In this document: positions 9,569-37,929 of the stretch, piece after piece
How positions within the stretch are numbered: position 1 is the stretch's first letter
How the letters are laid out: the number at the start of each line of letters is the position of its first letter
NCBI RefSeq assembly: GCF_008831285.2
Contig: NC_045147.1
Span: forward strand, 20,340,581-20,404,580
DNA from: Nymphaea colorata
Taxonomy: Eukaryota > Streptophyta > Magnoliopsida > Nymphaeales > Nymphaeaceae
Length of the DNA stretch: 64,000 nt
Reading direction: 5' to 3'
Position numbers and translations under genes: made by a program
The notes under the pieces: generated by a model
What the model was told of the DNA's origin: nothing
The model's database searches: none
What the model saw: only the letters and a program-made list of their open reading frames with translations

Positions 9569-10000
9569 CGAGGATTGTTGTTGTCAAAACTTGAATTGAA
9601 TGAATCATGATTGATAACTATATGTTCACTTTTGAACTTATGAATTGTGATGTAATCGAATTCTGTTCAGCTGCTTATTATGTTATTTTGAATGTCTGAT
9701 TTCTTATTTTGGAATGTGTTGTTCATAGTTCATAGTTCATACTTCATACTTCATAATCATATACATGAATGATGAATGTTCATTTAAATACATTTTTCTT
9801 GATTTTTTCTGATTTTTACTTGTTTTTTCGGATTTTTTTTGGAATTTTTATGATTTTTTGGAATTTTTTATGATTTTTTAATATTTTTTAAAAATTAAAA
9901 AATTAATTTTACGATATGTTACGATACGTTTACGATACGGCGTATAGGTCGGCCCGATCGATACGTGATACGCTACGCCAGTGATAACATTGATTATACT

Positions 10001-10598
10001 AACGCATCCAGTTGGTCATGCAATGGTCGTGTTAACCAGTCAGCCATTTACTTCAATTGCATCTAATTGACATTTTTAAGTTGATGGAGGGCATGTTGCA
10101 TCATCAATATCATAGAGCAGTTCCCAGGTCTCACAGGACTGCTTTCCTTTTTGTTGTACGGGGTTCATCGTACTTTTTGCGCTCAAAATGAGACGATCAC
10201 ATAACATTTACATCTCAACTCTAAAGCGCAATTGTCTAATATTGCATGTTTTTCATTGACTTTTCTTTTGTCTTACGCATTATCTCCTAAAACTGATCAT
10301 TATACCAATGCACCTAGCTGGCCATGCATTGGTCGTGTCAACCATTCAAAGATTTATTTCAATTGCATCTAATTGACATTTTTAACTTGATGGTGGACAT
10401 GTTGTTTCATCAAGATCTAAGAGCAGTTCTCAGGTCTCAAAGGACTGCTTTCCCTCTTATTGTACGGAGTTCAACGCATTGTTTGCGCTCAAAATGAGGC
10501 GATCACAAATCATTTACATCACATCCATTGAGCGCGATTGTCTAGTATTGCATGCTTAACAATGACTTTCCTTTTGTCTTACGCATAACCTCCTAAAA
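10001..10598 (+). repeat. Diverged satellite monomers between the hAT element and the HOR core
   Basis: This holds about two monomers related to, but clearly diverged from, the core. They lack the nine-monomer order seen further right. At about 10600 the sequence switches abruptly, mid-monomer, into the monomer-I type (TTCATGGTGGGCATG). That marks the start of the HOR core. Confidence 0.85.
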
Positions 10599-10835
10599 CT
10601 TCATGGTGGGCATGTTGCTTCGTCAAGATCCTAGAGCAGATCCCAGGTCTCACAGGACCGCTTTCCCTTTTGTAGCACGGGGTTCATCGCATCTTTTTCG
10701 CTCAAAATGAGGCGATCACATATGTTTTAAAACACATCCTTGAGCGCGCTTGTCTAGTATTGCATGCTTATTATTGACTTTCGTTTTTTCATACGCATAA
10801 CCTCCTAAAACTGACTATTATACCAATGCATCTAG
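10599..10835 (+). repeat. Partial HOR unit (end of monomer I)
   Basis: This is the 3' part of a monomer-I copy, nearly identical to 13328-13561, and is the leftmost piece of the ordered core. Confidence 0.85.
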
Positions 10836-13561
10836 TTGGCCATGCATTGGCCGTGTCAACCAGTCAGTCATTTATTTCGGTTGCATCTAATTGACATTTT
10901 TAACTCGATGAAGGGCATGTTGTTTCATCAAGATCCTAGAACAGTTCCCAGGTCTCACAGGACTGCTTTTTCATTTGTGGTGCGGGGTTCATCGTATCCT
11001 TTGCATATCACATATCATTTACATCACATCCCTTGAGCCCACCAAGCCAGTATTGAATGTTTTTCTTTGACTTCCCCTTTGTCCTACGCACAACCTCCAA
11101 AAACTGACCATTATACTAACACATCTAGTTGGCCATGCATTGGTCGTGTCAACCCGTCATTCATCTATTTCAAATTGCATCATATTGACATTTATAACTC
11201 GATGGAGGGCATGTTGCTTCATTAAGATCCTAGAACGGTTCCCAGGTCTCACAGGACTGCTTTCCCTTTTGTTGTGTGGGGTTTATCGTATCCTTTCCGC
11301 TCAAAATGAGAAGATTACATATCATTTACATCACATCCCTTGAGCGCATCTGTCTAGTATTGAATGTTTTTCTTTGTCTTTCCTTTTTGTCTTACGCATA
11401 ACCTCCAAAAACTGACCATTATACCAACGCATCTAGTTGGCCATGCATTGGTTGTGTCAATCGGTCAACCAATTATTTCAATTGCATCTAATTGACATTT
11501 CTAACTTGACGGTGGGCGTGTCGCTTCATCAAGATCCTAGACCAGTTCCCACGTCTCATTGGACGACATTCCATTTTGTTGTGCGGGGTTCATCGTATCT
11601 TTTGCGCTCGAAATGAGACGATCACATATCATTAACATCACATCCCTTTAACGCACTTGTCTCGTACTGAATGCTTTTCTTTGACTTTCCTTTTGTCTTA
11701 CGCATAACATCCAAAAACTGACCATTATACCAATGCAACTAATTGGCCATGCAATGGTCGTGTCAACCGGTCAGCCATTTATTTCAATTGCATCTAATAG
11801 ACATTTTGAACTTGATGCTACGCATGTTGCCTCATCAAGATCCTAGAGCAGTTCCCAGGTCTCACAGGACTGCTTTCCCTTTTGTTGTACGGGGTTCATC
11901 GTATTTTTTGCGCTCAAAATGAAACGATCACAGATTATTTACATCACATCCTTTGAGCGCACTTGCGTAGTATTGCATGCTTTTCATTGACTTTCTTTTC
12001 GTCTTACACATAACTTCCTAAAACTGACCACTTTACCAATACATCTAGTTGGCCATGCATTGGTCGTGTCAACCGGTCAGCCATTTATCTCAATTGCATC
12101 TAATAGACATTTTTAACTTGATGGTAGGCATGCTGCCTCATCAAGGTCCTAGAGCAGTTCCCAGGTCTCATAGGACTGCTTTTCCATTTGTTATACGGGG
12201 TTCATCGTATCTTTGCGCTCAAAATGATACTATGACTTATCATTTACATCACATCCATTGAGCGCGCTTGTCTTGTATTGCAGGCATACCGTTGTCTTTC
12301 CTTTTGTCTTGCGCATAACCTCCTAAAACTGACCATTATACCAATGCACCTAGTTGGCCATGCATTGGTCGTGCCGACCAGTCAGCCATTTATTTCAATT
12401 GCATCTAATTGAAAATTCTAACTTGATGGAGGGCATCTTGCTTCATCAAGGTCCTAGAGCAGATCCCAAGTCTCACAAGACCGCTTTCCCTTTTGTTGTA
12501 CGCGGTTCATCGCATCTTTTCCGCTCAAAATGACGCGATCACATATCTTTTACAACACATCCCTTGATCGCGCTTGTCTAGTATTGCATGCTTATCATTG
12601 TCTTTACCTTTTTCATATGCAAACTGATCACTATGCCAATGCATCTAGTTGGCCATGCATTGGTCGTGTCAACCGGTCAGCCATTTATTTCAATTGCATT
12701 TAATAGACATTTTTAACTTGATGGTAAGCATGTTGCCTCGTCAAGATCCTACACCAGTTCCCACGACCCATAGGATTGCTTTCCATTTTGTAGTTTGGGG
12801 TTCATCGTATCTTTTCCGCTCGAAATAAGACGATCACATATCATTACATCACATTCCTTGAGCGCACCTGTCTAGTATTGCATGCTTTTCATTGACTTTC
12901 CTTTTGTCTTACGCATAACTTCCTAAAACTGACTATTATACCAATGCATCTAGTTGGCCATGCATTGGTCGTGTCAACCAATCAGTCATTTGCTTCAATT
13001 GTATCTAATAGACATTTTCAACTTAATGGGGTGCATGTTACTTCGTCAAGATACTAAAGCAGTTCTCATGTCTCACAGGACTGTTTTTCTATTTGTTGTA
13101 CGGGGTTCATTGTATCTTTCCGCTACAATTAAGACTATCACTTATCATTTATATCTCATCCCTTGAGTGCACTCGTCTAGTATTGCACGCTTTTCATTGT
13201 CTTTCCTTTTTTCATATGCAAAACATCCTAAAACTAACCAATATACCAACGCACATAACTGGCCAAGCATTGGTTGTGCCAACCAGTGAACCATTTATAT
13301 CAATTGCATCTAATTGACATTTCTAACTTCATGGTGGGCATGTTGCTTCGTCAAGATCCTAGAGCAGATCCCAGGTCTCACAGGACCGCTTTCCCTTTTG
13401 TAGCACGGGGTTCATCGCATCTTTTTCGCTCAAAATGAGGCGATCACATATGTTTTAAAACACATCCTTGAGCGCGCTTGTCTAGTATTGCATGCTTATT
13501 AGACTTTCGTTTTTTCATACGCATAACCTCCTAAAACTGACTATTATACCAATGCATCTAG
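10836..13561 (+). repeat. HOR unit 1 (2,726 bp, monomers A-I)
   Basis: This is a complete nine-monomer unit with monomer lengths 293, 308, 306, 306, 305, 295, 305, 305 and 303. Monomers A and F-to-G junctions are shortest; G is preceded by loss of the CATAACCTCCTAA stretch. It shares the GCAGGCATACC variant in monomer E with unit 7. Confidence 0.95.
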
Positions 13562-16276
13562 TTGGCCATGCATTGGCCGTGTCAACCAGTCAGTCATTTA
13601 TTTCGGTTGCATCTAATTGACATTTTTAACTCGATGAAGGGCATGTTGTTTCATCAAGATCCTAGAACAGTTCCCAGGTCTCACAGGACTGCTTTTTCAT
13701 TTGTGGTGCGGGGTTCATCGTATCCTTTGCATATCACATATCATTTACATCACATCCCTTGAGCCCACCAATCCAGTATTGAATGTTTTTCTTTGACTTC
13801 CCCTTTGTCCTACGCACAACCTCCAAAAACTGACCATTATACTAACACATCTAGTTGGCCATGCATTGGTCGTGTCAACCCGTCATTCATCTATTTCAAA
13901 TTGCATCATATTGACATTTATAACTCGATGGAGGGCATGTTGCTTCATTAAGATCCTAGAACAGTTCCCAGGTCTCACAGGACTGCATTCCCTTTTGTTG
14001 TGCGGGGTTTATCGTATCCATTCTGCTCAAAATGAGAAGATTACATATCATTTACATCACATCCCTTCAGCGCATCTGTCTAGTATTGAATGTTTTTCTT
14101 TGTCTTACGCATCACCTCCAAAAACTGACCATTATACCAACGCATCTAGTTGGCCATGCATTGGTTGTGTCAATCGGTCAACCAATTATTTCAATTGCAT
14201 CTAATTGACATTTCTAACTTGACGGTGGGCGTGTCGCTTCATCAAGATCCTAGACCAGTTCCCACGTCTCATAGGACGACATTCCATTTTGTTGTGCGGG
14301 GTTCATCGTATCTTTTGCGCTCGAAATGAGACGATCACATATCATTAACATCACATCCCTTTAGCGCACTTGTCTCGTACTGAATGCTTTTCTTTGACTT
14401 TCCTTTTGTCTTACGCATAACATCCAAAAACTGACCATTTTACCAATGCAACTAATTGGCCATGCAATGGTCGTGTCAACCGGTCAGCCATTTATTTCAA
14501 TTGCATCTAATAGACATTTTGAACTTGATGCTACGCATGTTGCCTCATCAAGATCCTAGAGCAGTTCCCAGGTCTCACAGGACTGCTTTCCCTTTTGTTG
14601 TACGGGGTTCATCGTATTTTTTGCGCTCAAAATGAAACGATCACACATTATTTACATCACATCCTTTGAGCGCACTTGCGTAGTATTGCATGCTTTTCAT
14701 TGACTTTCTTTTCGTCTTACACAGAACTTCCTAAAACTGACCACTTTACCAATACATCTAGTTGGCCATGCATTGGTCGTGTCAACCGGTCAGCCATTTA
14801 TCTCAATTGCATCTAATAGACATTTTTAACTTGATGGTAGGCATGCTGCCTCATCAAGGTCCTAGAGCAGTTCCCAGGTCTCATAGGACTGCTTTTCCAT
14901 TTGTTATACGGGGTTCATCGTATCTTTGCGCTCAAAATGATACTATGACTTATCATTTACATCACATCCATTGAGCGCGCTTGTCTTGTATTGCATGCAT
15001 ACCGTTGTCTTTTCTTTTGTCTTGCGCATAACCTCCTAAAACTGACCATTATACCAATGCACCTAGTTGGCCATGCATTGGTCGTGCCGACAAGTCAGCC
15101 ATTTATTTCAATTGCATCTACTTGAAAATTCTAACTTGATGGGGGGCATCTTGCTTCATCAAGGTCCTAGAGCAGATCCCAAGTCTCACAAGACCGCTTT
15201 CCCTTTTGTTGTACGCGGTTCATCGCATTTTTTCCGCTCAAAATGACGCGATCACATATCTTTTACAACACATCCCTTGATCGCGTTTGTCTAGTATTGC
15301 ATGCTTATCATTGTCTTTACCTTTTTCATATGCAACCTGATCACTATGCCAATGCATCTAGTTGGCCAAGCATTGGTCGTGTCAACCGGTCAGCCATTTA
15401 TTTCAATTGCATTTAATAGACATTTTTAACCTGATGGTAGGCATGTTGCCTCATCAAGATCCTAGACCAGTTCCCACGACTCATAGGACTGCTTTCCATT
15501 TTGTAGTTCGGGGTTCATCGTATCTTTTCCGCTCGAAATAAGACGATCACATATCATTACATCACATTCCTTGAGCGCACCTGTCTAGTATTGCATGCTT
15601 TTCATTGACTTTCCTTTTGTCTTACGCATAACTTCCTAAAACTGACTATTATACCAATGCATCTAGTTGGCCATGCATTGGTCGTGTCAACCAATCAGTC
15701 ATTTGCTTCAATTGTATCTAATAGACATTTTTAACTTAATGGGGTGCATGTTACTTCGTCGAGATACTAAAGCAGTTCCCATGTCTCACAGGACTGTTTT
15801 TCTATTTGTTGTACGGGGTTCATTGTAACTTTCCGCTACAAATAAGACTACCACTTATCATTTATATCTCATCCCTTGAGTGCACTCGTCTAGTATTGCA
15901 CGCTTTTCATTGTCTTTCCTTTTTTCATATGCAAAACATCCTAAAACTAACCAATATACCAACGCACATAACTGGCCAAGCATTGGTTGTGCCAACCAGT
16001 GAACAATTTATATCAATTGCATCTAATTGACATTTCTAACTTCATGGTGGGCATGTTGCTTCGTCAAGATCCAAGAGCAGATCCCAGGTCTCACAGGACC
16101 GCTTTCCCTTTTGTAGCACGGGGTTCATCGCATCTTTTTCGCTCAAAATGAGGCGATCACATGTGTTTTAAAACACATCCTTGAGCGCGCTTGTCTAGCA
16201 TTGCATGCTTATTATTGACTTTCGTTTTTTCATACACATAACCTCCTAAAACTGACTATTATACCAATGCATCTAG
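13562..16276 (+). repeat. HOR unit 2 (2,715 bp)
   Basis: This is a complete unit. It is 11-12 bp short mainly because of a deletion at about 14100, where TTTGTCTTTCCTTTTGTCTTACG has become TTTGTCTTACG. This is slippage between repeated TTTGTCT words. A smaller loss occurs at about 13501. Confidence 0.93.
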
Positions 16277-19003
16277 TTGGCCATGCATTGGCCGTGTCAA
16301 CCAATCAGTCATTTATTTCGGTTGCATTTAATTGACATTTTTAACTCGATAAAGGGCATGTTGTTTCATCAAGATCCTAGAATAGTTCCCAGGTCTCACA
16401 GGACTGCTTTTTCATTTGTGGTGTCGGGTTCATCGTATCCTTTGCATATCACATATCATTTACATCACATCCCTTGAGCCCACCAATCCAGTATTGAATG
16501 TTTTTCTTTGACTTCCCCTTTGTCCTACGCACAACCTCCAAAAACTGACCATTATACTAACACATCTAGTTGGCCATGCATTGGTCGTGTCAACCCGTCA
16601 TTCATCTATTTCAAATTGCATCATATTGACATTTATAACTCGATGGAGGGCATGTTGCTTCATTAAGATCCTAGAACAGTTCCCAGGTCTCACAGGACTG
16701 CTTTCCCTTTTGTTGTGCGGGGTTTATCGTATCCTTTCCGCTCAAAATGAGAAGATTACATATCATTTACATCACATCCCTTGAGCGCATCTGTCTAGTA
16801 TTGAATGTTTTTCTTTGTCTTTCCTTTTGTCTTACGCATCACCTCCAAAAACTGACCATTATACCAACGCATCTAGTTGGCCATGCATTGGTTGTGTCAA
16901 TCGGTCAACCAATTATTTCAATTGCATCTAATTGACGTTTCTAACTTGACGGTGGGCGTGTCGCTTCATCAAGATCCTAGACCAGATCCCACGTCTCATA
17001 GGACGACATTCCATTTTGTTGTGCGGGGTTCATCGTATCTTTTGCGCTCGAAATGAGACGATCACATATCATTAACATCACATCCCTTTAGCGCACTTGT
17101 CTCGTACTGAATGCTTTTCTTTGACTTTCCTTTTGTCTTACGCATAACATTCAAAAACTGACCATTATACCAATGCAACTAATTGGCCATGCAATGGTCG
17201 TGTCAACCGGTCAGCCATTTATTTCAATTGCATGTAATAAACATTTTGAACTTGATGCTACGCATGTTGCCTCTTCAAGATCCTAGAGCAGTTCCCTGGT
17301 CTCACAGGACTGCTTTTCCTTTTGTTGTACGGGGTTCATCGTATTTTTTGCGCTCAAAATGAAACGATCACAGATTATTTACATCACATCCTTTGAGCGC
17401 ACTTGCGTAGTATTGCATGCTTTTCATTGACTTTCTTTTCGTCTTACACATAACTTCCTAAAACTGACCACTTTACCAATACATCTAGTTGGCCATGCAT
17501 TGGTCGTGTCAACCGGTCAGCCATTTATCTCAATTGCATCTAATAGACATTTTTAACTTGATGGTAGGCATGCTGCCTCATCAAGGTCCTAGAGCAGTTC
17601 TCAGGTCTCATAGGACTGCTTTTCCATTTGTTATACGGGGTTCATCGTATCTTTGCGCTCAAAATGATACTATGACTTATCATTTACATCACATCCATTG
17701 AACGCGCTTGTCCTGTATTGCATGCATACCGTTGTCTTTCCTTTTGTCTTGCGCATAGCCTCCTAAAACTGACCATTATACCAATGCACCTAGTTGGCCA
17801 TGCATTCGTCGTGCCGACCAGTCAGCCATATATTTCAATTGCATCTAATTGAAAATTCTAACTTGATGGGGGGCATCTTGCTTCATCAAGGTCCTAGAGC
17901 AGATCCCAAGTCTCACAAGACCGCTTTCCCTTTTGTTGTACGCGGTTCATCGCATCTTTTCCGCTCAAAATGACGCGATCACATATCTTTTACAACACAT
18001 CCCTCGATCGCGCTTGTCTAGTATTGCATGCTTATCATTGTCTTTACCTTTTTCATATGCAAACTGATCACTATGCCAATGGATCTAGTTGGCCATGCAT
18101 TGGTCGTGTCAACCGGTCAGCCATTTATTTCAATTGCATTTAATAGACATTTTTAACTTGATGGTAGGCATGTTGCCTCGTCAAGATCCTACACCAGTTC
18201 CCACGACCCATAGGACTGCTTTCCATTTTGTAGTTCGGGGTTCATCGTATCTTTTCCGCTCGAAATAAGACGATCACATATCATTACATCACATTCCTTG
18301 AGCGCACCTGTCTAGTATTGCATGCTTTTCATTGACTTTCCTTTTGTCTTACGCATAACTTCCTAAAACTGACTATTATACCAATGCATCTAGTTGGCCA
18401 TGCATTGGTCGTGTCAACCAATCAGTCATTTACTTCAATTGTATCTAATAGACATTTTTAACTTAATGGGGTGCATGTTACTTCGTCAAGATACTAAAGC
18501 AGTTCTCATGTCTCACAGGACTGTTTTTCTATTTGTTGTACGGGGTTCACTGTATCTTTCCGCTACAAATAAGACTATCACTTATCATTTATATCTCATC
18601 CCTTGAGTGCACTCGTCTAGTATTGCACGCTTTTCATTGTCTTTCCTTTTTTCATATGCAAAACATCCTAAAACTAACCAATATACCAACGCACATAACT
18701 GGCCAAGCATTGGTTGTGCCAACCAGTGAACCATTTATATCAATTGCATCTAATTGACATTTCTAACTTCATGGTGGGCATGTTGCTTCGTCAAGATCCT
18801 AGAGCAGATCCCAGGTCTCACAGGACCGCTTTCCCTTTTGTAGCACGGGGTTCATCGCATCTTTTTCGCTCAAAATGAGGCGATCACATATGTTTTAAAA
18901 CACATCCTTGAGCGCGCTTGTCTAGTATTGCATGCTTATTATTGACTTTCGTTTTTTCATACGCATAACCTCTTAAAACTGACTATTATACCAATGCATC
19001 TAG
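16277..19003 (+). repeat. HOR unit 3 (2,727 bp)
   Basis: This is a complete unit. Monomer H carries GGTTCACTGTATC at 18544, a variant shared only with the neighbouring unit 4 (20414). That points to recent local duplication of adjacent units. Confidence 0.93.
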
Positions 19004-20873
19004 TTGGCCATGCATTGGCCGTGTCAACCAGTCAGTCATTTATTTCGGTTGCATCTAATTGACATTTTTAACTCGATGAAGGGCACGTTGTTTCATCAAG
19101 ATCCTAGAACAGTTCCCAGGTCTCACAAGACTGCTTTTCCATTTGTGGTGCGGGGTTCATCGTATCCTTTGCATATCACATATCATTTACATCACATCCC
19201 TTGAGCCCACCAATCCAGTATTGAATGTTTTTCTTTGACTTCCCCTTTGTCCTACACATCCTTTGAGCGCACTTGCGTAGTATTGCATGCTTTTCATTGA
19301 CTTTCTTTTCGTCTTACACATAACTTCCTAAAACTGACCACTTTACCAATACATCTAGTTGGCCATGCATTGGTCGTGTCAACCGGTCAGCCATTTATCT
19401 CAATTGCATCTAATAGACATTTTTAACTTGATGGTAGGCATGCTGCCTCATCAAGGTCCTAGAGCAGTTCTCAGGTCTCATAGGACTGCTTTTCCATTTG
19501 TTATACGGGGTTCATCGTATCTTTGCGCTCAAAATGATACTATGACTTATCATTTACATCACATCCATTGAACGCGCTTGTCCTGTATTGCATGCATACC
19601 GTTGTCTTTCCTTTTGTCTTGCGCATAGCCTCCTAAAACTGACCATTATACCAATGCACCTAGTTGGCCATGCATTCGTCGTGCCGACCAGTCAGCCATA
19701 TATTTCAATTGCATCTAATTGAAAATTCTAACTTGATGGGGGGCATCTTGCTTCATCAAGGTCCTAGAGCAGATCCCAAGTCTCACAAGACCGCTTTCCC
19801 TTTTGTTGTACGCGGTTCATCGCATCTTTTCCGCTCAAAATGACGCGATCACATATCTTTTACAACACATCCCTCGATCGCGCTTGTCTAGTATTGCATG
19901 CTTATCATTGTCTTTACCTTTTTCATATGCAAACTGATCACTATGCCAATGCATCTAGTTGGCCATGCATTGGTCGTGTCAACCGGTCAGCCATTTATTT
20001 CAATTGCATTTAATAGACATTTTTAACTTGATGGTAGGCATGTTGCCTCGTCAAGATCCTACACCAGTTCCCACGACCCATAGGACTGCTTTCCATTTTG
20101 TAGTTCGGGGTTCATCGTATCTTTTCCGCTCGAAATAAGACGATCACATATCATTACATCACATTCCTTGAGCGCACCTGTCTAGTATTGCATGCTTTTC
20201 ATTGACTTTCCTTTTGTCTTACGCATAACTTCCTAAAACTGACTATTATACCAATGCATCTAGTTGGCCATGCATTGGTCGTGTCAACCAATCAGTCATT
20301 TACTTCAATTGTATCTAATAGACATTTTTAACTTAATGGGGTGCATGTAACTTCGTCAAGATACTAAAGCAGTTCTCATGTCTCACAGGACTGTTTTTCT
20401 ATTTGTTGTACGGGGTTCACTGTATCTTTCCGCTACAAATAAGACTATCACTTATCATTTATATCTCATCCCTTGAGTGCACTCGTCTAGTATTGCACGC
20501 TTTTCATTGTCTTTCCTTTTTTCATATGCAAAACATCCTAAAACTAACCAATATACCAACGCACATAACTGGCCAAGCATTGGTTGTGCCAACCAGTGAA
20601 CCATTTATATCAATTGCATCTAATTGACATTTCTAACTTCATGGTGGGCATGTTGCTTCGTCAAGATCCAAGAGCAGATCCCAGGTCTCACAGGACCGCT
20701 TTCCCTTTTGTAGCACGGGGTTCATCGCATCTTTTTCGCTCAAAATGAGGCGATCACATATGTTTTAAAACACATCCTTGAGCGCGCTTGTCTAGTCTTG
20801 CATGCTTATTATTGACTTTCGTTTTTTCATACGCATAACCTCTTAAAACTGACTATTATACCAATGCATCTAG
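19004..20873 (+). repeat. HOR unit 4, shortened by 857 bp (A/D hybrid monomer)
   Basis: Monomer A begins normally at 19004. At about 19255 (GTCCTAC joined to ACATCCTTTGAGCG) it switches into the 3' end of monomer D, and monomer E follows at 19359. The end of A, all of B and C and most of D are missing. The hybrid monomer is 355 bp, so the loss is not a whole number of monomers. Confidence 0.93.
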
Positions 20874-23596
20874 TTGGCCATGCATTGGCCGTGTCAACCA
20901 GTCAGTCATTTATTTCAGTTGCATCTAATTGACATTTTTAACTCGATGAAGGGCACGTTGTTTCATCAAGATCCTAGAACAGTTCCCAGGTCTCACAAGA
21001 CTGCTTTTCCATTTGTGGTGCGGGGTTCATCGTATCCTTTGCATATCACATATCATTTACATCACATCCCTTGAGCCCACCAATCCAGTATTGAATGTTT
21101 TTCTTTGACTTCCCCTTTGCCTACGCACAACCTCCAAAAACTGACCATTATACTAACACATCTAGTTGGCCATGCATTGGTCGTGTCAACCCGTCATTCA
21201 TCTATTTCAAATTGCATCATATTGACATTTATAACTCGATGGAGGGCATGTTGCTTTATTAAGATCCTAGAACAGTTCCCAGCTCTCACAGGAATGCTTT
21301 CCATTTTGTTGTGCGGGGTTTATCGTATCCTTTCCGCTCAAAATGAGAAGATTACATATCATTTACATCACATCCCTTGAGCGCATCTGTCTAGTATTGA
21401 ATGTTTTTCTTTGTCTTTCCTTTTGTCTTACGCATAACCTCCAAAAACTGACCATTATACCAACGCATCTAGTTGGCCATGCATTGGTGGTGTCAATCGG
21501 TCAACCAATTATTTCAATTGCATCTAATTGACATTTCTAACTTGACGGTGGGCGTGTCGCTTCATCAAGATCCTAGACCAGTTCCCACGTCTCATAGGAC
21601 GACATTCCATTTCGTTGTGCGGGGTTCATCGTATCTTTTGCGCTCGAAATGAGACGATCACATATCATTAACATCACATCCCTTTAGCGCACTTGTCTCG
21701 TACTGAATGCTTTTCTTTGACTTTCCTTTTGTCTTACGCATAACATCCAAAAACTGACCATTATACCAATGCAACTAATTGGCCATGCAATGGTCGTGTC
21801 AACCGGTCAGCCATTTATTTCAATTGCATCTAATAGACATTTTGAACTTGATGCTACGCATGTTGCCTCATCAAGATCCTAGAGCAGTTCCCAGGTCTCA
21901 CAGGACTGCTTTTCCTTTTGTTGTACGGGGTTCATCGTATTTTTTGCGCTCAAAATGAAATGATCACAGATTATTTACATCACATCCTTTGAGCGCACTT
22001 GCGTAGTATTGCATGCTTTTCATTGACTTTCTTTTCGTCTTACAGATAACTTCCTAAAACTGACCACTTTACCAATACATCTAGTTGGCCATGCATTGGT
22101 CGTGTCAACCGGTCAGCCATTTATCTCAATTGCATCTAATAGACATTTTTAACTTGATGGTAGGCATGCTGCCTCATCAAGGTACTAGAGCAGTTCCCAG
22201 GTCTCATAGGACTGCTTTTCCATTTGTTATACGGGGTTCATCGTATCTTTGCGCTCAAAATGATACTATGACTTATCATTTACATCACATCCATTGAGCG
22301 CGCTTGTCTTGTATTGCATGCATACCGTTGTCTTTCCTTTTGTCTTGCGCATAGCCTCCTAAAACTGACCATTATACCAATGCACCTAGTTGGCCATGCA
22401 TTCGTCGTGCCGACCAGTCAGCCATATATTTCAATTGCATCTAATTGAAAATTCTAACTTGATGGGGGGCATCTTGCTTCATCAAGGTCCTAGAGCAGAT
22501 CCCAAGTCTCACAAGACCGCTTTCCCTTTTGTTGTACGCGGTTCGTCGCATCTTTTCCGCTCAAAATGACGCGATCACATATCTTTTACAACACATCCCT
22601 TGATCGCGCTTGTCTAGTATTGCATGCTTATCATTGTCTTTGCCTTTTTCATATGCAAACTGATCACTATGCCAATGCATCTAGTTGGCCATGCATTGGT
22701 CGTGTCAACTGGTCAGCCATTTATTTCAATTGCATTTAATAGACATTTTTAACTTGATGGTAGGCATGTTGCCTCGTCAAGATCCTACACTAGTTCCCAC
22801 GACCCATAGGACTGCTTTCCATTTTGTAGTTCGGTGTTCATCGTATCTTTTCCGCTCGAAATAAGACGATCACATATCATTACATCACATTCCTTGAGCG
22901 CACCTGTCTAGTATTGCATGCTTTTCATTGACTTTCCTTTTGTCTTACGCATAACTTCCTAAAACTGACTATTATACCAATGCATCTAGTTGGCCATGCA
23001 TTGGTCGTGTCAACCAATCAGTCATTTGCTTCAATTGTATCTAATAGATATTTTTAACTTAATGGGGTGCATGTTACTTCGTCAAGATACTAAAGCAGTT
23101 CCCATGTCTCACAGGACTGTTTTTCTATTTGTTGTACGGGGTTCATTGTATCTTTCCGCTACAAATAAGACTATCACTTATCATTTATATCTCATCCCTT
23201 GAGTGCACTCGTCTAGTATTGCACGTTCATTGTCTTTCCTTTTTTCATATGCAAAACATCCTAAAACTAACCAATATACCAACGCACATTACTGGCCAAG
23301 CATTGGTTGTGCCAACCAGTGAACCATTTATGTAAATTGCATCTAATTGACATTTCTAACTTCATGGTGGGCATGTTGCTTCGTCAAGATCCTAGAGCAG
23401 ATCCCAGGTCTCACAGGACCGCTTTCCCTTTTGTAGCACGGGGTTCATCGCATCTTTTTCGCTCAAAATGAGGCGATCACATGTGTTTTACAACACATCC
23501 TTGAGCACGCTTGTCTAGTATTGCATGCTTATTATTGACTTTCGTTTTTTCATACGCATAACCTCCTAAAACTGACTATTATACCAATGCATCTAG
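20874..23596 (+). repeat. HOR unit 5 (2,723 bp)
   Basis: This is a complete nine-monomer unit with small indels, including a shortened monomer H/I junction at about 23221 where GCACGCTTTTCATTG has become GCACGTTCATTG. Confidence 0.92.
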
Positions 23597-26276
23597 TTGG
23601 CCATGCATTGGCCGTGTCAACCAGTCAGTCATTTATTTCGGTTGCATCTAATTGACATTTTTAACTCGATGAAGGGCATGTTGTTTCATCAAGATCCTAG
23701 AACAGTTCCCAGGTCTCACAGGACTGCTTTTCCATTTGTGGTGCGAGGTTCATAGTATCCTTTGCATATCACATATCATTTACATCACATCGCTTGAGCC
23801 CACCAATCCAGTATTGAATGTTTTTCTTTGACTTCCTCTTTATCCTACGCACAACCTCCAAAAACTGACCATTATACTAACACATCTAGTTGGCCAAGCA
23901 TTGGTCGTGTCAACCCGTCATTCATCTATTTCAAATTGCATCATATTGACATTTATAACTCGATGAAGGGCATGTTGCTTCATTAAGATCCTAGAACAGT
24001 TCCCAGGTCTCACAGGACTGCTTTCCCTTTTGTTGTGCGGGGTTTATCGTATACTTTCCGCTCAAAATGAGAAGATTACATATCATTTACAGCACATCCC
24101 TTCAGCGCATCTGTCTAGTATTGAATGTTTTTCTTTGTCTTTCCTTTTGTCTTACGCATAACCTCCAAAAACTGACCATTATACCAACGCATCTAGTTGG
24201 CCATGCATTGGTTGTGTCAATCGGTCAACCAATTATTTCAATTGCATCTAATTGACGTTTCTAACTTGACGGTGGGCGTGTCGCTTCATCAAAATCCTAG
24301 ACCAGTTCCCACGTCTCATAGGACGACATTCCATTTTGTTGTGCGGGGTTCATCGTATCTTTTGCGCTCGAAATGAGACGATCACATATCATTAACATCA
24401 CATCCCTTTAGCGCACTTGTCTCGTAGTGAATGCTTTTCTTTGACTTTCCTTTTGTCTTACGCATAACATCCAAAAACTGACCATTATACCAATGCAACT
24501 AATTGGCCATGCAATGGTCGTGTCAACCGGTCAGCCATTTATTTCAATTGCATCTGATAGACATTTTGAACTTGATGCTACGCATGTTGCCTCATCAAGA
24601 TCCTAGAGCAGTTCCCAGGTCTCACAGGACTGCTTTCCCTTTTGTTGTACGGGGTTCATCGTATTTTTTGCGCTCAAAATGAAACGATCACAGATTATTT
24701 ACATCACATCCTTTGAGCGCACTTGCGTAGTATTGCATGCTTTTCATTGACTTTCTTTTCGTCTTACACATAACTTCCTAAAACTGACCACTTTACCAAT
24801 ACATCTAGTTGGCCATGCATTGGTCGTGTCAACCGGTCAGCCATTTATCTCAATTGCATCTAATAGGCATTTTTAACTTGATGGTAGGCATGCTGCCTCA
24901 TCAAGGTCCTAGAGCAGTTCTCAGGTCTCATAGGACTGCTTTTCCATTTGTTATACGGGGTTCATCGTATCTTTGCGCTCAAAATGAAACTATGACTTAT
25001 CATTTACATCACATCCATTGAGCGCGCTTGTCTTGTATTGCATCCATACCGTTGTCTTTCCTTTTATCTTGCGCATAACCTCCTAAAACTGACCATTATA
25101 CCAATGCACCTAGTTGGCCATGCATCGGTCGTGCCGACCAGTTAGCCATTTATTTCAATTGCATCTACTTGAAAATTCTAACTTGATGGGGGGCATCTTG
25201 CTTCATCAAGGTCCTAGAGCAGATCCCAAGTCTCACAAGACCGCTTTCCCTTTTGTTGTACGCGGTTCATCGCATCTTTTAAGCTCAAAATGACACGATC
25301 ACATATCTTTTACAACACATCCCTTGATCGCGCTTGTCTAGTATTGCATGCTTATCATTGTCTTTACCTTTTTCATATGCAAACTGATCACTATGCCAAT
25401 GCATCTAGTTGGCCAAGCATTGGTCGTGTCAACCGCTCAGCCATTTATTTCAATTGCATTTAATAGACATTTTTAACCTGATGGTAGGCATGTTGCCTCG
25501 TCAAGATCCTAGACCAGTTCCGACGACTCATAGGACTGCTTTCCATTTTGTAGTTCGGGGTTCATCGTATCTTTTCCGCTCGAAATAAGACGATCACATA
25601 TCATTACATCACATTCCTTGAGCGCACCTGTCTAGTATTGCATGCTTTTCATTGACTTTCCTTTTGTCTTACGCATAACTTCCTAAAACTGACTATTATA
25701 CCAATGCATCTAGTTGGCCATGCATTGGTCGTGTCAACCAATCAGTCATTTGCTTCAATTGTATCTAATAGACATTTTTAACTTAATGGCGTGCATGTTA
25801 CTTCGTCAAGATACTAAAGCAGTTCCCATGTCTCACAGGACTGTATTTCTATTTGTTGTACGGGGTTCATTGTATCTTTCCGCTACAAATAAGACTATCA
25901 CTTATCATTTATATCTCATCCCTTGAGTGCACTCGTCTAGTATTGCACGCTTTTCATTGTCTTTCCTTTTTTCATATGCAAAACATCATAAAACTAACCA
26001 ATATACCAACGCACATAACTGGCCAAGCATTGGTTGTGCCAACCAGTGAACCATTTATATCAATTGCATCTAATTGACATTTCTAACTTCATGGTGGGCA
26101 TGTTGCTTCGTCAAGATCCTAGAGCAGATCCCAGGTCTCACAGGACCGCTTTCCCTTTTGTAGCACGGGGTTCATCGCATCTTTTTCGCTCAAAATGAGG
26201 CGATCACATATGTTTTAAAACACATCCTTGAGCGCGCAAAACCTCCTAAAACTGACTATTATACCAATGCATCTAG
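23597..26276 (+). repeat. HOR unit 6 (2,680 bp)
   Basis: This is a complete unit apart from a deletion of about 46 bp in monomer I at 26238 (GAGCGCGC joined directly to AAAACCTCC). Monomer B carries the ACAGCACATCCCTTCAGCG variant (24089), shared with unit 7 (26770). Confidence 0.92.
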
Positions 26277-29004
26277 TTGGCCATGCATTGGCCGTGTTAA
26301 ACCAATCAGTCATTTATTTCGGTTGTATTTAATTGACATTTTTAACTCGATGAAGGGCATGTTGTTTCATCAAGATCCTAGAACAGTTCCCAGGTCTCAC
26401 AGGACTGCTTTTTCATTTGTGGTGCCGGGTTCATCGTATCCTTTGCATATCACATATCATTTACATCACACCCCTTGAGCCCACCAATCCAGTATTGAAT
26501 GTTTTTCTTTGACTTCCCCTTTGTCCTACGCACAACCTCCAAAAACTGACCATTATACTAACACATCTAGTTGGCCATGCATTGGTCGTGTCAACCCGTC
26601 ATTCATCTATTTCAAATTGCATCATATTGACATTTATAACTCGATGGAGGGCATGTTGCTTCATTAAGATCCTAGAACAGTTCCCAGGTCTCACAGGACT
26701 GCTTTCCCTTTTGTTGTGCGGGGTTTATCGTATCCTTTCCGCTCAAAATGAGAAGATTACATATCATTTACAGCACATCCCTTCAGCGCATCTGTCTAGT
26801 ATTGAATGTTTTTCTTTGTCTTTCCTTTTGTCTTACGCATAACCTCCAAAAACTGACCATTATACCAACGCATCTAGTTGGCCATGCATTGGTTGTGTCA
26901 ATCGGTCAACCAATTATTTCAATTGCATCTAATTGACGTTTCTAACTTGACGGTGGGCGTGTCGCTTCATCAAAATCCTAGACCAGTTCCCACGTCTCAT
27001 AGGACGACATTCCATTTTGTTGTGCGGGGTTCATCGTATCTTTTGCGCTCGAAATGAGACGATCACATATCATTAACATCACATCCCTTTAGCGCACTTG
27101 TCTCGTAGTGAATGCTTTTCTTTGACTTTCCTTTTGTCTTACGCATAACATCCAAAAACTGACCATTATACCAATGCAACTAATTGGCCATGCAATGGTC
27201 GTGTCAACCGGTCAGCCATTTATTTCAATTGCATCTGATAGACATTTTGAACTTGATGCTACGCATGTTGCCTCATCAAGATCCTAGAGCAGTTCCCAGG
27301 TCTCACAGGACTGCTTTCCCTTTTGTTGTACGGGGTTCATCGTATTTTTTGCGCTCAAAATGAAACGATCACACATTATTTACATCACATCCTTTGAGCG
27401 CACTTGCGTAGTATTGCATGCTTTTCATTGACTTTCTTTTCGTCTTACACATAACTTCCTAAAACTGACCACTTTACCAATACATCTAGTTGGCCATGCA
27501 TTGGTCGTGTCAACCGGTCAGCCATTTATCTCAATTGCATCTAATAGACATTTTTAACTTGATGGTTGGCATGCTGCCTCATCAAGGTCCTAGAGCAGTT
27601 CCCAGGTCTCATAGGACTGCTTTTCCATTTGTTATACGGGGTTCATCGTATCTTTGCGCTCAAAATGATACTATGACTTATCATTTACATCACATCCATT
27701 GAGCGCGCTTGTCTTGTATTGCAGGCATACCGTTGTCTTTCCTTTTGTCTTGCGCATAACCTCCTAAAACTGACCATTATACCAATGCACCTAGTTGGCC
27801 ATGCATTGGTCGTGCCGACCAGTCAGCCATTTATTTCAATTGCATCTAATTGAAAATTTTAACTTGATGGAGGGCATCTTGCTTCATCAAGGTCCTAGAG
27901 CAGATCCCAAGTCTCACAAGACCGCTTTCCCTTTTGTTGTACGCGGTTCATCGCATCTTTTCCGCTCAAAATGACGCGATCACATATCTTTTACAACACA
28001 TCCCTTGATCGCGCTTGTCTAGTATTGCATGCTTATCATTGTCTTTACCTTTTTCATATGCAAACTGATCACTATGCCAATGCATCTAGTTGGCCAAGCA
28101 TTGGTCGTGTCAACCGCTCAGCCATTTATTTCAATTGCATTTAATAGACATTTTTAACCTGATGGTAGGCATGTTAACTCGTCAAGATCCTAGACCAGTT
28201 CCCACGACTCATAGGACTGCTTTCCATTTTGTAGTTCGGGGTTCATCGTATCTTTTCCGCTCGAAATAAGACGATCACATATCATTACATCACATTCCTT
28301 GAGCGCACCTGTCTAGTATTGCATGCTTTTCATTGACTTTCCTTTTGTCTTACGCATAACTTCCTAAAACTGACTATTATACCAATGCATCTAGTTGGCC
28401 ATTCATTGGTCGTGTCAACCAATCAGTCATTTGCTTCAATTGTATCTAATAGACATTTTTAACTTAATGGGGTGCATGTTACTTCGTCAAGATACTAAAG
28501 CAGTTCCCATGTCTCACAGGACTGTTTTTCTATTTGTTGTACGGGGTTCATTGTATCTTTCCGCTACAAATAAGACTATCACTTATCATTTATATCTCAT
28601 CCCTTGAGTGCACTCGTCTAGTATTGCACGCTTTTCATTGTCTTTCCTTTTTTCATATGCAAAACATCCTAAAACTAACCAATATACCAACGCACATAAC
28701 TGGCCAAGCATTGGTTGTGCCAACCAGTGAACCATTTATATCAATTGCATCTAATTGACATTTCTAACTTCATGGTGGGCATGTTGCTTCGTCAAGATCC
28801 TAGAGCAGATCCCAGGTCTCACAGGACCGCTTTCATTTTTGTAGCACGGGGTTCATCGCATCTTTTTCGCTCAAAATGAGGCGATCACATATGTTTTAAA
28901 ACACATCCTTGAGCGCGCTTGTCTAGTATTGCATGCTTATTATTGACTTTCGTTTTTTCATACGCATAACCTCCTAAAACTGACTATTATACCAATGCAT
29001 CTAG
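26277..29004 (+). repeat. HOR unit 7 (2,728 bp)
   Basis: This is a complete unit. It shares monomer B and C variants (for example TCGTAGTGAATGC) with unit 6, consistent with exchange between neighbours. Confidence 0.92.
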
Positions 29005-31731
29005 TTGGCCATGCATTGGCCGTGTCAACCAGTCAGTCATTTATTTCGGTTGCATCTAATTGACATTTTTAACTCGATGAAGGGCATGTTGTTTCATCAA
29101 GATCCTAGAACAGTTCCCAGGTCTCACAGGACTGCTTTTCCATTTGTGGTGCGGGGTTCATCGTATCCTTTGCATATCACATATCATTTACATCACATCC
29201 CTTGAGCCCACCAATCCAGTATTGAATGTTTTTCTTTGACTTCCCATTTATCCTACGCACAACCTCCAAAAACTGACCATTATACTAACACATCTAGTTG
29301 GCCATGCATTGGTCGTATCAACCCGTCATTCATCTATTTCAAATTGCATCATATTGACATTTATAACTCGATGGAGAGCATGTTGCTTCATTAAGATCCT
29401 AAAACAGTTCCCAGGTCTCACAGGACTGCATTCCCTTTTGTTGTGCGGGGTTTATCGTATCCTTTCCGCTCAAAATGAGAAGATTACATATCATTTACAT
29501 CACATCCCTTGAGCGCATCTGTCTAGTATTGAATGTTTTTCTTTGTCTTTCCTTTTGTCTTACGCATCACCTCCAAAAACTGACCATTATACCAACGCAT
29601 CTAGTTGGCCATGCATTGGTTGTGTCAATCGGTCAACCAATTATTTCAATTGCATCTAATTGACGTTTCTAACTTGACGGTGGGCGTGTCGCTTCATCAA
29701 GATCCTAGACCAGTTCCCACGTCTCATAGGACGACATTCCATTTTGTTGTGCGGGGTTCATCGTATCTTTTGCGCTCGGAATGAGACGATCACATATCAT
29801 TAACATCACATCCCCTTAGCGCACTTGTCTCGTACTGAATGCTTTTCTTTGACTTTCCTTTTGTCTTACGCATAACATCCAAAAACTGACCATTATACCA
29901 ATGCAACTAATTGGCCATGCAATGGTCGTGTCAACCGGTCAGCCATTTATTTCAATTGCATCTAATAGACATTTTGAACTTGATGCTACGCATGTTGCCT
30001 CATCAAGATCCTAGAGCAGTTCCCAGGTCTCACAGGACTGCTTTCCCTTTTGTTGTACGGGGTTCATCGTATTTTTTGCGCTCAAAATGAAACGATCACA
30101 GATTATTTACATCACATCCTTTGAGCGCACTTGCGTAGTATTGCATGCTTTTCATTGACTTTCTTTTCGTCTTACACATAACTTCCTAAAACTGACCACT
30201 TTACCAATACATCTAGTTGGCCATGCATTGGTCGTGTCAACCGGTCAGCCATTTATCTCAATTGCATCTAATAGACATTTTTAACTTGATGGTAGGCATG
30301 CTGCCTCATCAAGGTCCTAGAGCAGTTCTCAGGTCTCATAGGACTGCTTTTCCATTTGTTATACGGGGTTCATCGTATCTTTGCGCTCAAAATGATACAA
30401 TGACTTATCATTTACATCACATCCATTGAGCGCGCTTGTCTTGTATTGCATGCATACCGTTGTCTTTCCTTTTGTCTTGCGCATAACCTCCTAAAACTGA
30501 CCATTATACCAATGCACCTAGTTGGCCATGCATTGGTCGTGCCGACCAGTCAGCCATTTATTTCAATTGCATCTAATTGAAAATTCTAACTTGATGGAGG
30601 GCATCTTGCTTCATCAAGGTCCTAGAGCAGATCCCAAGTCTCACAAGACCGCTTTCCCTTTTGTTGTACGCGGTTCATCGCATCTTTTCCGCTCAAAATG
30701 ACGCGATCACATATCTTTTACAACACATCCCTTGATCGCGCTTGTCTAGTATTGCATGTTTATCATTGTCTTTACCTTTTTCATATGCAAACTGATCACT
30801 ATGCCAATGCATCTAGTTGGCCATGCATTGGTCGTGTCAACCGATCAACCATTTATTTCAATTGCATTTAATAGACATTTTTAACTTGATGGTAGGCATG
30901 TTGCCTCGTCAAGATCCTACACCAGTTCCCACGACCCATAGGACTGCTTTCCATTTTGTAGTTCGGGGTTCATCGTATCTTTTCCGCTCGAAATAAGACG
31001 ATCACATATCATTACATCACATTCCTTGAGCGCACCTGTCTAGTATTGCATGCTTTTCATTGACTTTCCTTTTGTCTTACGCATAACTTCCTAAAACTGA
31101 CTATTATACCAATGCATCTAGTTGGCCATGCATTGGTCGTGTCAACCAATCAGTCATTTGCTTCAATTGTATCTAATAGACATTTTTAACTTAATGGGGT
31201 GCATGTTACTTCGTCAAGACACTAAAGCAGTTCCCATGTCTCACAGTACTGTTTTTCTATTTGTTGTACGGGGTTCATTGTATCTTTCCGCTACAAATAA
31301 GACTATCACTTATCATTTATATCTCATCCCTTGAGTGCACTCGTCTAGTATTGCACGCTTTTCATTGTCTTTCCTTTTTTCATATGCAAAACATCCTAAA
31401 ACTAACCAATATACCAACGCACATAACTGGCCAAGCATTGGTTGTGCCAACCAGTGAACCATTTATATCAATTGCATCTAATTGACATTTCTAACTTCAT
31501 GGTGGGCATGTTGCTTCGTCAAGATCCTAGAGCAGATCCCAGGTCTCACAGGACCGCTTTCCCTTTTGTAGCACGGGGTTCATCGCATCTTTTTCGCTCA
31601 AAATGAGGCGATCACATATGTTTTAAAACACATCCTTGAGCGCGCTTGTCTAGTATTGCATGCTTATTATTGACTTTCGTTTTTTCATACGCATAACCTC
31701 CTAAAACTGACTATTATACCAATGCATCTAG
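29005..31731 (+). repeat. HOR unit 8 (2,727 bp)
   Basis: This is a complete nine-monomer unit with only scattered substitutions relative to units 3 and 9. Confidence 0.92.
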
Positions 31732-33530
31732 TTGGCCATGCATTGGCCGTGTCAACCAGTCAGTCATTTATTTCGGTTGCATTTAATTGACATTTTTAAC
31801 TCGATGAAGGGCATGTTGTTTCATCAAGATCCTAGAACAGTTCCCAGGTCTCACAGGACTGCTTTTTCATTTGTGGTGCGGGGTTCATCGTATCCTTTGC
31901 ATATCACATATCATTTACATCACATCCCTTGAGCCCACCAATCCAGTATTGAATGTTTTTCTTTGACTTCCCCTTTGTCCTACGCACAACCTCCAAAAAC
32001 TGACCATTATACTAACACATCTAGTTGGCCATGCATTGGTCGTGTCAACCCGTCATTCATCTATTTCAAATTGCATCATATTGACATTTATAACTCGATG
32101 GAGGGCATGTTGCTTCATTAAGATCCTAGAACAGTTCCCAGGTCTCACAGGACTGCTTTCCCTTTTGTTGTGCGGGGTTTATCGTATCCTTTCCGCTCAA
32201 AATGAGAAGATTACATATCATTTACATCACATCCCTTGAGCGCATCTGTCTAGTATTGAATGTTTTTCTTTGTCTTTCCTTTTGTCTTACGCATAACCTC
32301 CAAAAACTGACCATCATACCAACGCATCTAGTTGACCATGCATTGGTTGTGTCAATCGGTCAACCAATTATTTCAATTGCATCTAATTGACGTTTCTAAC
32401 TTGACGGTGGGCGTGTCGCTTCATCAAGATCCTAGACCAGTTCCCACGTCTCATAGGACGACATTCCATTTTGTTGTGCGGGGTTCATCGTATCTTTTGC
32501 GCTCGAAATGAGACGATCACATATCATTAACATCACATCCCTTTAGCGCACTTGTCTCGTACTGAATGCTTTTCTTTGACTTTCCTTTTGTCTTACGCAT
32601 AACATCCAAAAACCGACCATTATACCAATGCAACTAATTGGCCATGCAATGGACGTGTCAACCGGTCAGCCATTTATTTCAATTGCATCTAATAGACATT
32701 TTGAACTTGATGCTACGCATGTTGCCTCATCAAGATCCTAGAGCAGTTCCCAGGTCTCACAGGACTGCTTTCCCTTTTGTTGTACGGGGTTCATCGTATT
32801 TTTTGCGCTCAAAATGAAACGATCACAGATTATTTACATCACATCCTTTGAGCGCACTTGCGTAGTATTGCATGCTTTTCATTAACTTTCTTTTCGTCTT
32901 ACACATAACTTCCTAAAACTGACCACTTTACCAATACATCTAGTTGGCCATGCATTGGTCGTGTCAACCGGTCAGCCATTTATCTCAATTGCATCTAATA
33001 GACATTTTTAACTTGATGGTAGGCATGCTGCCTCATCAAGGTCCTAGAGCAGTTCCCAGGTCTCATAGGACTGCTTTTCCATTTGTTATACGGGGTTCAT
33101 CGTATCTTTGCGCTCAAAATGATACTATGACTTATCATTTACATCACATCCATTGAGCGCGCTTGTCTTGTATTGCATGCATACCGTTGTCTTTCCTTTT
33201 GTCTTGCGCATAACCTCCTAAAACTGACCATTATACCAATGCACCTAGTTGGCCATGCATTGGTCGTGCCGACAAGTCAGCCATTTATTTCAATTGCATC
33301 TACTTGAAAATTCTAACTTGATGGGGGGCATCTTGCTTCATCAAGGTCCTAGAGCAGATCCCAAGTCTCACAAGACCGCTTTTCCTTTTGTTGTACGCGG
33401 TTCATCGCATCTTTTCCGCTCAAAATGACGCGATCACATATCTTTTACAACACATCCCTTGATCGCGCTTGTCTAGTATTGCATGCTTATCATTGTCTTT
33501 ACTTTTTTCATACGCATAACCTCTTAAAAC
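31732..33530 (+). repeat. HOR unit 9, truncated in monomer F/G at the right edge
   Basis: Monomers A to F are present. The ordered core ends at about 33510, just before the non-autonomous hAT insertion (33531). To the right of the insertion only diverged monomers are found. Confidence 0.92.
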
Positions 33531-34314
33531 CAATGTTATAAAAGGTGTAGCGTATCGCGTATCGGTCGGGCTGACCTATACGCTGTATCGTAACGTATCG
33601 TAAACGTAGCGTAGCGTATCGTAAAATTAATTTTTAAATTTTAAAAAATATTTAAAAATCAGAAAAAAATAGAGAAAATTTATTAAAAATATGAAAAAAT
33701 AAACAAAAAATCAGAAATCAAGAAAAATATATTCAAATATAAAAAAGATCATCATACATAAGGAACATTCATGTGTGTCAACAACACATTCAAAAATTAG
33801 AAATTAGATATTCAAAATAACATAATAAGCATCCATCACAATTTTAAACTTGAAAATTTTATAGAATCTTAAGACTTAGAGTTTTAGGACTTAGAGTTTT
33901 AGGACTTATATTACATCACAATTTTACAAGTTCAAAACATATAGTTATCAACTTATCATCTTTCATGATTTAACGATAATATTTTCCAAATCGATGAATC
34001 CTTGGTTATTTTTTATGAAAATGTACAAAATCTTTCCCTCCTACGTCTCTTGGAGTCTTTAAATACAAGAAGAGAGAGAGGGAGGAGTGTTTAAACTTTA
34101 AAAAATAAAAAAATTTGTGTTTTAACCCGTATCGTACGATACGGGGGTGTATCGTCCGTATCGTACGATACGGCCCCCGTATCGCACGTATCGTGCGATA
34201 CGTGTACGATACGGACGCGTATCGTCTTTAAACAGCGTATCGTATAGGTTTTCTTGACCTATACGATACGTATCGTACGATACGCGTCCGTATCGTACGA
34301 TACGGATAACATTG
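33531..34314 (-). mobile_element. Non-autonomous hAT derivative, 784 bp, with 8-bp TSD
   Basis: The ends are CAATGTTAT (33531) and GATAACATTG (34305-34314). The 8-bp duplication CTTAAAAC flanks it at 33523-33530 and 34315-34322. Its left 400 bp resembles the reverse complement of the right end of the 3.4-kb element, including the AT-rich tail and the sequence just downstream of the transposase stop. Its right part matches the reverse complement of the left end. The whole transposase region is deleted. It is therefore an internally deleted, inverted relative of the element at 6584. The right subterminal block is a dense run of GTATCGTACGATAC-type palindromes. Confidence 0.95.
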
Positions 34315-34322
34315 CTTAAAAC

Positions 34323-35180
34323 TGACCATTACACCAATGCATCTACTTGGCCATGCATTGGTCGTGTCAACTAGTCTGTCATTTCTTTCAATTGCATCTA
34401 ATTGGCATTTCTAACTTGATGGTGGGCATGTTGCTTCATCAAGATCCTAAAGCAGATCCCAGGTCTTACAGGACCGCTTTCCGTTTTGTTGTACGGGGTT
34501 CATCGCATCTTTTCCGTTCAAAATGAGGCAACCACATATCTTTTACAACACATCCCTTGAGCGCGCTTGTCTAGTGTTGCATGCTTATCATTGTCATTTA
34601 TTTTTTCATACGCATAACCTCCTAAAACTGACCATTATACCAATGCATCTAGTTGGTCATGCATTGGTCATGTCAACCAGTCAGCCATTTATTCCTATTG
34701 CATCTAATTGACATTTCTAACTCGATGGAGGGTATATTGCTTCATCAAGGTCCTAGAACAGTTCCCAGGTCTCACAGAACTGCTTTCCCTTCTGTTGTGC
34801 GGGGTTCATCGTATCCTTTGCGCTCAAAATAAGATATCACATATCATTTACATCACATTCCTTGAGCGCACCTGTCTAGTATTGCATGTTTTTCTTTGAC
34901 TTTCCTTTTGTCTTACGCATAACCTACAAAAACTGACCATTATACCAGTGCATCTAGTTGGCTATGCATTGGTCGTGTCAACCGGTCAGCCATTTATTTC
35001 AATTGCATCGAATTGAAATTTCTACTTGTTGGTGGGCATGTTGTTTGATCAAGATCCTAGAGCAGTTCTCAGGTCTCACAGGACTGTTTTCCCTTTTGTT
35101 GTATGGGGTTTATTCATTGTATCTGTTCTGTTCAAAATGAAATGATCACATATCAAATACATCACATCCCTTGAGCGCTC
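34323..35180 (+). repeat. Diverged satellite monomers at the right edge
   Basis: About three monomers in the same orientation (anchors near 34349, 34652 and 34958) are too diverged to assign to HOR positions. Similarity stops at about 35180 after CCCTTGAGCGC. Confidence 0.9.
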
Positions 35181-37926: not shown

Positions 37927-37929
37927 AGT

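Follow-up and report, generated by a model that had tools for sequence, protein, structure and literature searches.

Higher-order repeats (HORs), in which blocks of divergent satellite monomers are repeated near-identically, are already known from human alpha satellite and from several plants. The array described here lies in a stretch of 64,000 bp of the Nymphaea colorata genome (NC_045147.1, positions 20,340,581 to 20,404,580 of the forward strand; the whole stretch is herein referred to as the window). Its monomer is 303 bp long, compared with ~171 bp for the alpha-satellite monomer and 178 bp for the Arabidopsis centromeric monomer; the sequence differs from alpha satellite, and no sequence relation is claimed. 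As described for human alpha satellite, its HORs are divergent-monomer blocks repeated near-identically, with mostly locus- or chromosome-specific units and divergent single monomers at the edges, and all of these features are found in the window array (PMC8997354, PMC8122249). In contrast, alpha-satellite arrays span megabases and have neighboring monomers 50-70% identical, whereas the window array spans tens of kilobases and its neighbors are 83% identical (PMC8997354, PMC8122249).

Among plants, the HOR R18L8 of Arabidopsis thaliana CEN2 (chr2:4,800,609-4,844,007) has eight monomers in the pattern 2-1-3-4-2-3-4-1; it is centromeric and reuses four monomer classes, whereas the window unit has nine classes, each occurring once (PMC10053651). 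The Salicaceae repeats Palv148 and Salix180 are, like the arrays here, non-centromeric tandem arrays organized into HORs (PMC12046899). Palv148 is reported in 182,323 copies in one haplotype, with monomers mixing between chromosomes (PMC12046899), unlike the arrays found here, which are few and whose monomers cluster by locus. In Vicia, subfamily VG-V of a 38-bp satellite forms a 186-bp five-monomer HOR and is likewise a plant case of multi-monomer homogenization, although the evidence there comes from gels of extrachromosomal circular DNA and here from an assembled array (PMC2543021). The first-pass annotation of the window had contrasted the array with most plant satellites, said to show only simple monomer homogenization; the HORs described for Arabidopsis CEN2 (PMC10053651) and Salicaceae (PMC12046899) make this contrast overstated. 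The accessible portions of the open-licence literature searched describe neither the monomer family nor private HORs that arose independently at several loci away from centromeres, and no title on a water-lily satellite was among the matches listed for Nymphaea and satellite DNA. What would be new is the family itself, together with replicated, locus-private HORs outside an identified centromere.

The window array contains 83 monomer pieces, extending up to position 35181, and all 84 monomer matches in the window lie on the forward strand, that is, head to tail. Clustering of the monomers at a 10% cut gave fifteen types, nine of which (D-L) recur in fixed order between positions 10597 and 33529 as a strict nine-monomer HOR with a unit of 2,727 bp. 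The type string of the array is ABC, (DEFGHIJKL)x3, DE-HIJKL, (DEFGHIJKL)x4, DEFGHIJ, MNO. The mean identity, calculated for all monomers and units without gap columns, is 0.984 within types (minimum 0.959; 292 pairs), 0.827 between types (maximum 0.933; 3,111 pairs), and 0.829 between adjacent monomers (range 0.757-0.877; 79 pairs). Thus, the monomer clustering, which had been proposed as a check of the nine-monomer HOR, clearly separates identities within a unit from those between units, and 75 of the 76 neighbor steps of the core obey the cycle from D to L. The proposed period was recovered both as the commonest spacing between shared 20-mers in the window and as the sum of the nine consensus lengths (305+293+307+306+306+305+295+305+305 = 2,727 bp), and the core limits agree with the earlier ones within 2 bp. 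By its structure, the window array is a higher-order-repeat satellite.

In total, the core comprises nine units of 9, 9, 9, 7, 9, 9, 9, 9, and 7 monomers, corresponding to about eight and a half copies that are mutually 97.6-99.0% identical. Because these units differ by 1-2.4%, a collapsed array appears unlikely. The first-pass annotation had called the HOR clean, which holds for the nine-type cycle and not for the array as a whole: unit 4 has seven monomers, unit 7 carries a deletion, and the first unit starts within a truncated D, at the seam with C. The last unit ends at J. Single divergent monomers flank the core, A-C to its left and M-O to its right, each 85-91% identical to the nearest neighbor. 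The size of ~29 kb given previously corresponds to positions 6206-35181 and includes two inserted hAT-like elements. A 12,728-bp super-repeat hinted at by the spacings was rejected, as the unit-to-unit identities (0.976-0.990) favor no pairs at this distance; the spacing probably reflects the shortness of unit 4 together with the loss in unit 7.

For the distribution of the family, a genome of 407,766,735 bp in 783 contigs (408 Mb) was searched. A 26-base core motif had 588 matches at up to two mismatches, compared with none for the reversed control. Arrays were found on contig C1 (32.73M, 34.93M, and 35.06-35.09M), at several sites on C3 within 15.89-19.96M, on C10 (19.58-19.62M and the window), and on the unplaced contigs C37, C466, C505, and C641; this list is a lower bound, with the best 21 of 506 and the best 14 of 591 candidates scored. 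Related pieces occur on C2, C4, and C6, including three monomer pieces at C2:28.70M, and the array is indeed part of a larger family, as had been suggested. A 36-base tag of type F had eight matches at up to three mismatches in the 408-Mb assembly, all eight in the window array; the nine-monomer HOR therefore looks private to this locus, with type F alone covered by the genome-wide tag and the other eight types compared with the arrays examined. The best identity of any window monomer to another array examined is 0.898, and for 77 of the 81 long window monomers the nearest relative is inside the window. Separately, the arrays at C3:15.89-15.91M, 16.49-16.66M, and 19.95M and on C37 and C466 are close to one another, with best monomer matches of 97-100% and both orientations present; they would represent segmental duplications, although the unplaced contigs may instead be alternative haplotypes.

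HORs with other units were found at two further loci. At C1:32.73M, the unit is 1,765 bp: when the locus is divided every 1,765 bp into ten stretches, eight agree at 99.9-100%, the first at 98.8-98.9%, and the tenth, lying beyond the regular run, at 88.7-89.7%. Neighboring monomers at this locus average 0.900 (39 pairs). At C10:19.58M, the HOR is ~3.2 kb; its starts recur at 3,075-4,066 bp, and four 3,190-bp stretches are 94.8-97.2% identical in a comparison that omitted two of the six starts (20670 and 27811). Longer periods are present in C641 and in parts of C3 and C1 as well. The array at C1:32.732-32.748M is the most uniform among those examined.

We propose tentatively, and with slightly less than even confidence, that a satellite family, carried to new sites within duplicated pseudogene blocks, gives rise at one site after another to a distinct private HOR (the 2,727-bp nine-mer, the 1,765-bp unit, or the ~3.2-kb unit), with no centromere involved. 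If true, tandem arrays of this kind would form HORs by default, and the three loci, whose copies agree at ~99.9% (1,765-bp unit), 98.4% (2,727-bp unit), and 96% (~3.2-kb unit), would be natural replicates of the process at different ages. Most work on the origin of HORs concerns megabase-sized centromeres, where effects of the kinetochore, drive, and assembly problems occur together. The arrays here are short and assembled, that of the window has genes and gene fragments around it, and HORs appear to have formed separately, and at different times, at several loci. The need for a centromere in HOR formation would thus become testable by comparison of loci, individuals, and related species.

Clustering by locus was seen in a monomer tree, in which individual arrays are labeled by contig and letter. 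For 143 monomers in six locus groups, 8 label changes were counted, compared with 84 for shuffled labels (none of 200 shuffles was as low); the groups were pooled after the identities had been seen, with C1b, C1c, C505, and C641 forming one group and C3a2, C3d, and C466 another. The sample was limited to three monomers per window type and 12 per other array, with a minimum difference of 5% between them, and the tree was obtained by a quick search that leaves 62 of its 140 inner branches open. The window accounts for four label changes, the pooled C1 group for two, C10b for four, and C3e for three, and C1a and the main C3 group each form one side of a branch. Of the flank monomers, M and N group with core types (D, J, and M; E, F, and N), and the HOR unit therefore originated among local monomers. 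No colinear match to the D-L unit order was found in nine of the ten other arrays tested; for C10b the result is borderline, with a fraction of 0.047 of 300 shuffles scoring as high (uncorrected for ten tests). That the nine-monomer order was inherited from an array ancestral to the other loci as well was rejected as unsupported on this comparison.

It is highly probable that the satellite grew in place, the array having been copied within duplicated blocks and the HORs having arisen later and separately by locus. At the starting point, an older array of diverged ~303-bp monomers would have stood beside a dead kinesin fragment, and block duplications would have carried both to the window, to three C1 loci, and to one C3 locus. 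In four of 17 array stretches (the window, C1b, C1c, and C3e), the array breaks off at monomer position 242-243, and an early fragment of C1a does so as well; some of the other stretches are bounded by the extent of sequence retrieved. After this junction, the right flank of the window is 90% identical to those of C1b and C1c over 648 bp and 86% identical to that of C3e over 920 bp, and the first 155 bp of the C1a flank (F1) are 95.5% identical to the window's. Farther out, past this flank, kinesin-derived blocks follow in the window and at C1a, C1c, and C3e. Since the right flank is common to the five loci and the kinesin fragment follows at four of them, the array was probably copied between these loci inside larger blocks; from the junction and flank we infer block duplication rather than transposition. 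Part of the flank and a kinesin block also lie ~24 kb from the C3:15.9M array.

Genome searches returned 73 matches for the right flank, the window itself counted, and 92 for the kinesin block, itself counted, on C1-C6, C9, C10, and unplaced contigs. Many kinesin-block matches are far from known arrays, and the blocks on C4 and at C10:21.02M have no array link. In the window block, two open reading frames (ORFs) match the Pfam kinesin motor, one of them under the curated cut-off. The frame is broken between the DLAGSE-like and SKTG motifs in all four copies with the motif, among eight stretches scanned, and the fragment had probably become nonfunctional before its dispersal. The flanks of the loci differ by ~8-14% over long matches, with the C1a piece (4.5%) as an exception, whereas the HOR units differ by 1-2.4%; the HOR would therefore be younger than the spread of the loci. 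The suggestion of a young interstitial satellite can be kept in this respect: the HOR was homogenized later than its relatives elsewhere diverged. The C4 copy of the kinesin block (C4:27687500-27692499) is ~1.6-5.5 kb from the end of this contig of 27,693,492 bases and is 98.5% identical to the copy at C10:21.02M.

Alternatively, the array could be an internal part of a transposable element, such as a gene-capturing Helitron or Mutator-like element (MULE), that moves array, flank, and kinesin together. We consider this unlikely, even with the same junction and flank present at C1, C3, and C10 loci, a gene fragment inside the block, and many flank matches ending at one point, near window position 36037. 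This stop is explained by a block found in the window only: the other copies read across the point (5/5) continue after 13 bp into the sequence at window position 38836, and 36037 was rejected as a mobile-element end. The starts of the copies differ, that at C1:13.15M being inside F1, and neither fixed ends nor target duplications were seen in the parts examined, which cover the full extent of few copies.

Several observations weigh against the growth in place and block duplication preferred here. The shared junction ends the four stretches named above and the early C1a fragment only; C10b lacks such a flank, the main C3 arrays end near position 229 with a different flank, and no kinesin block was seen beyond C1b. 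F1 of C1a is closer to the window than the other flank matches, and the end monomers of the window, C1, and C3 arrays resemble one another no more than other monomers do. The left flank (4500-6230) is not common to other loci: besides itself, it has 17 short matches to its first ~126 bases. As the kinesin copies at C4, C10:21.02M, and C1:13.15M are 97-98.5% alike, the copies with the frame break represent two lineages and not four. The array list is incomplete, as the DNA search in which the best 21 of 506 candidates were scored missed the core of the window itself, and the loci examined together with the window contain 449 of the 588 core-motif matches, the remaining 139 lying outside them. 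Finally, unequal exchange, break-induced replication, and reinsertion of circles are inseparable with one assembly. The history proposed here covers the loci with the shared flank.

For the HOR itself, growth in place would mean that nine adjacent monomers, D-L, had diverged before they were amplified together, as a 2.7-kb block, to about eight and a half copies, most likely through successive rounds of unequal sister-chromatid exchange or through break-induced replication; both processes are described as sources of HORs (PMC8997354). Judging from the structure, we favor unequal sister-chromatid exchange in a 2.7-kb register to a modest degree, with break-induced replication as the main alternative. 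Circles may also be involved, given reports of plant circles derived from satellites and sized in multiples of the HOR (PMC2543021). At least one later step fused monomers with almost no homology, as shown by the seam at 19255, where E is joined out of register to H with at most 1 bp in common. The fourth unit, the seven-monomer variant DE-HIJKL, is best taken as a probable later tandem duplication of HIJKLDE, because I and J match their counterparts in unit 3 exactly and K and L match theirs at 99.7%. The two hAT-like elements would have interrupted the array later, and the other arrays would have reached their different units separately. Expected effects would be local copy-number changes and possibly silencing.

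A further alternative, close to one raised by the first-pass annotation, is that the array is a remnant or outlier of a centromeric or pericentromeric family and that its HOR results from centromere-specific turnover. This is quite improbable. The short-monomer arrays do fall within a single region of each large contig (C3, 15.9-20.0 of 30.9 Mb; C10, 19.6-20.4 of 24.9 Mb; C1, 32.7-35.1 of 44.0 Mb), and a homogenized core with divergent edges resembles alpha satellite. However, the large contigs found to carry such arrays number three, besides unplaced ones, the core motif has 588 matches in 408 Mb, and the window holds Exo70, aldo-keto reductase, and DUF7870/methyltransferase ORFs according to Pfam. 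The arrays examined are tens of kilobases long, an argument limited by assembly gaps at centromeres and by the lower-bound array list. As far as the sequence goes, there is no positive evidence of a centromere at the arrays found. Satellite-kinesin drive is known from maize Kindr and knobs. A comparable system here, in which a linked kinesin would move the satellite at meiosis, is extremely improbable: kinesin-derived blocks do lie beyond the arrays named above, and kinesins have been raised for the non-centromeric Salicaceae arrays (PMC12046899), but the motor-domain frame is broken at the same place in the four copies with the motif, and several blocks stand apart from arrays.

Table 1. Features of the window array and adjoining sequence, with positions counted from the first base of the window.
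Feature	Position	Strand	Basis
Left array edge: partial monomer (model 251-306) and divergent monomer A	6206-6569	+	Monomer search, clustering
hAT-like element between A and B	6584-9992	+	Read by eye; Pfam DUF659 on ORF 7537-8097
Divergent flanking monomers B and C	9993-10598	+	Monomer search, clustering
Nine-monomer HOR core, types D-L, unit 2,727 bp	10597-33529	+	20-mer spacing, clustering, consensus lengths, neighbor steps
Recent tandem duplication of seven-monomer segment HIJKLDE (probable); seam 19255	17162-21144	+	Clustering, seam comparison
Deletion of ~47 bp near the D/E boundary of unit 7, at 26235	26235-26256	+	Sequence comparison
Shorter hAT-like element, right edge of core; 8-bp target duplication CTTAAAAC	33531-34314		Read by eye
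Divergent flanking monomers M, N, and O; O ends at monomer position ~242	34315-35181	+	Monomer search, clustering
Right flank common to other loci: F1 35182-35336, F2 35337-35490, then remainder; 86-92% over long matches	35182-36037	+	Sequence comparison
Block of ~2.8 kb, absent between the same neighbors in 5/5 other copies read across the point	36038-38835		Genome comparison
Kinesin pseudogene block, copied to many loci; motor-domain pieces 39170-39394 and 39411-39668	38836-42978	-	Genome search, Pfam, frame scan

The longer hAT-like element is flanked by an 8-bp target duplication, ATTATACT, at 6576-6583 and 9993-10000, and its ends, read by eye, are CAATGTTATC and GATAACATTG. Its ORF matches DUF659, a domain associated with hAT transposases, and both elements have a terminal motif in common (by eye). 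No matches to Rfam at gathering thresholds and no tRNAs were found within the window, and a functional RNA or tRNA was dropped on these grounds as the identity of the array. The array is a non-coding satellite, and no function is required to explain it. A position of the array within an intron of a kelch-like gene was also rejected: a putative kelch-like exon was read by eye at 5860-5938, and no continuation to the right was seen by eye.

Compound units were found at C2:28.6855-28.6940M and C6:91.5-95.0k, where tandem units have monomer pieces alternating with F1 and F2. The spacing between monomer starts on C2 is 860-897 bp in four of eight cases and 380-716 bp in the others. These units may preserve an earlier form of the repeat; the 303-bp monomer may have been derived from a compound unit of this type by loss, or the change may have run the other way. 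To the left of the C1b and C1c arrays, a copia RNase H-like region ends at the array edge (by eye). In the window, the first ~1.4 kb of the block at 36038-38835 is 92% identical to C1:35239317-35240719. An ORF to the right of the array (44082-45797) matches Exo70_C (Pfam), and a partial copy of the EXO70 region lies to the left at 1756-3460, 88.5-89.5% identical to 45254-46966 on the right.

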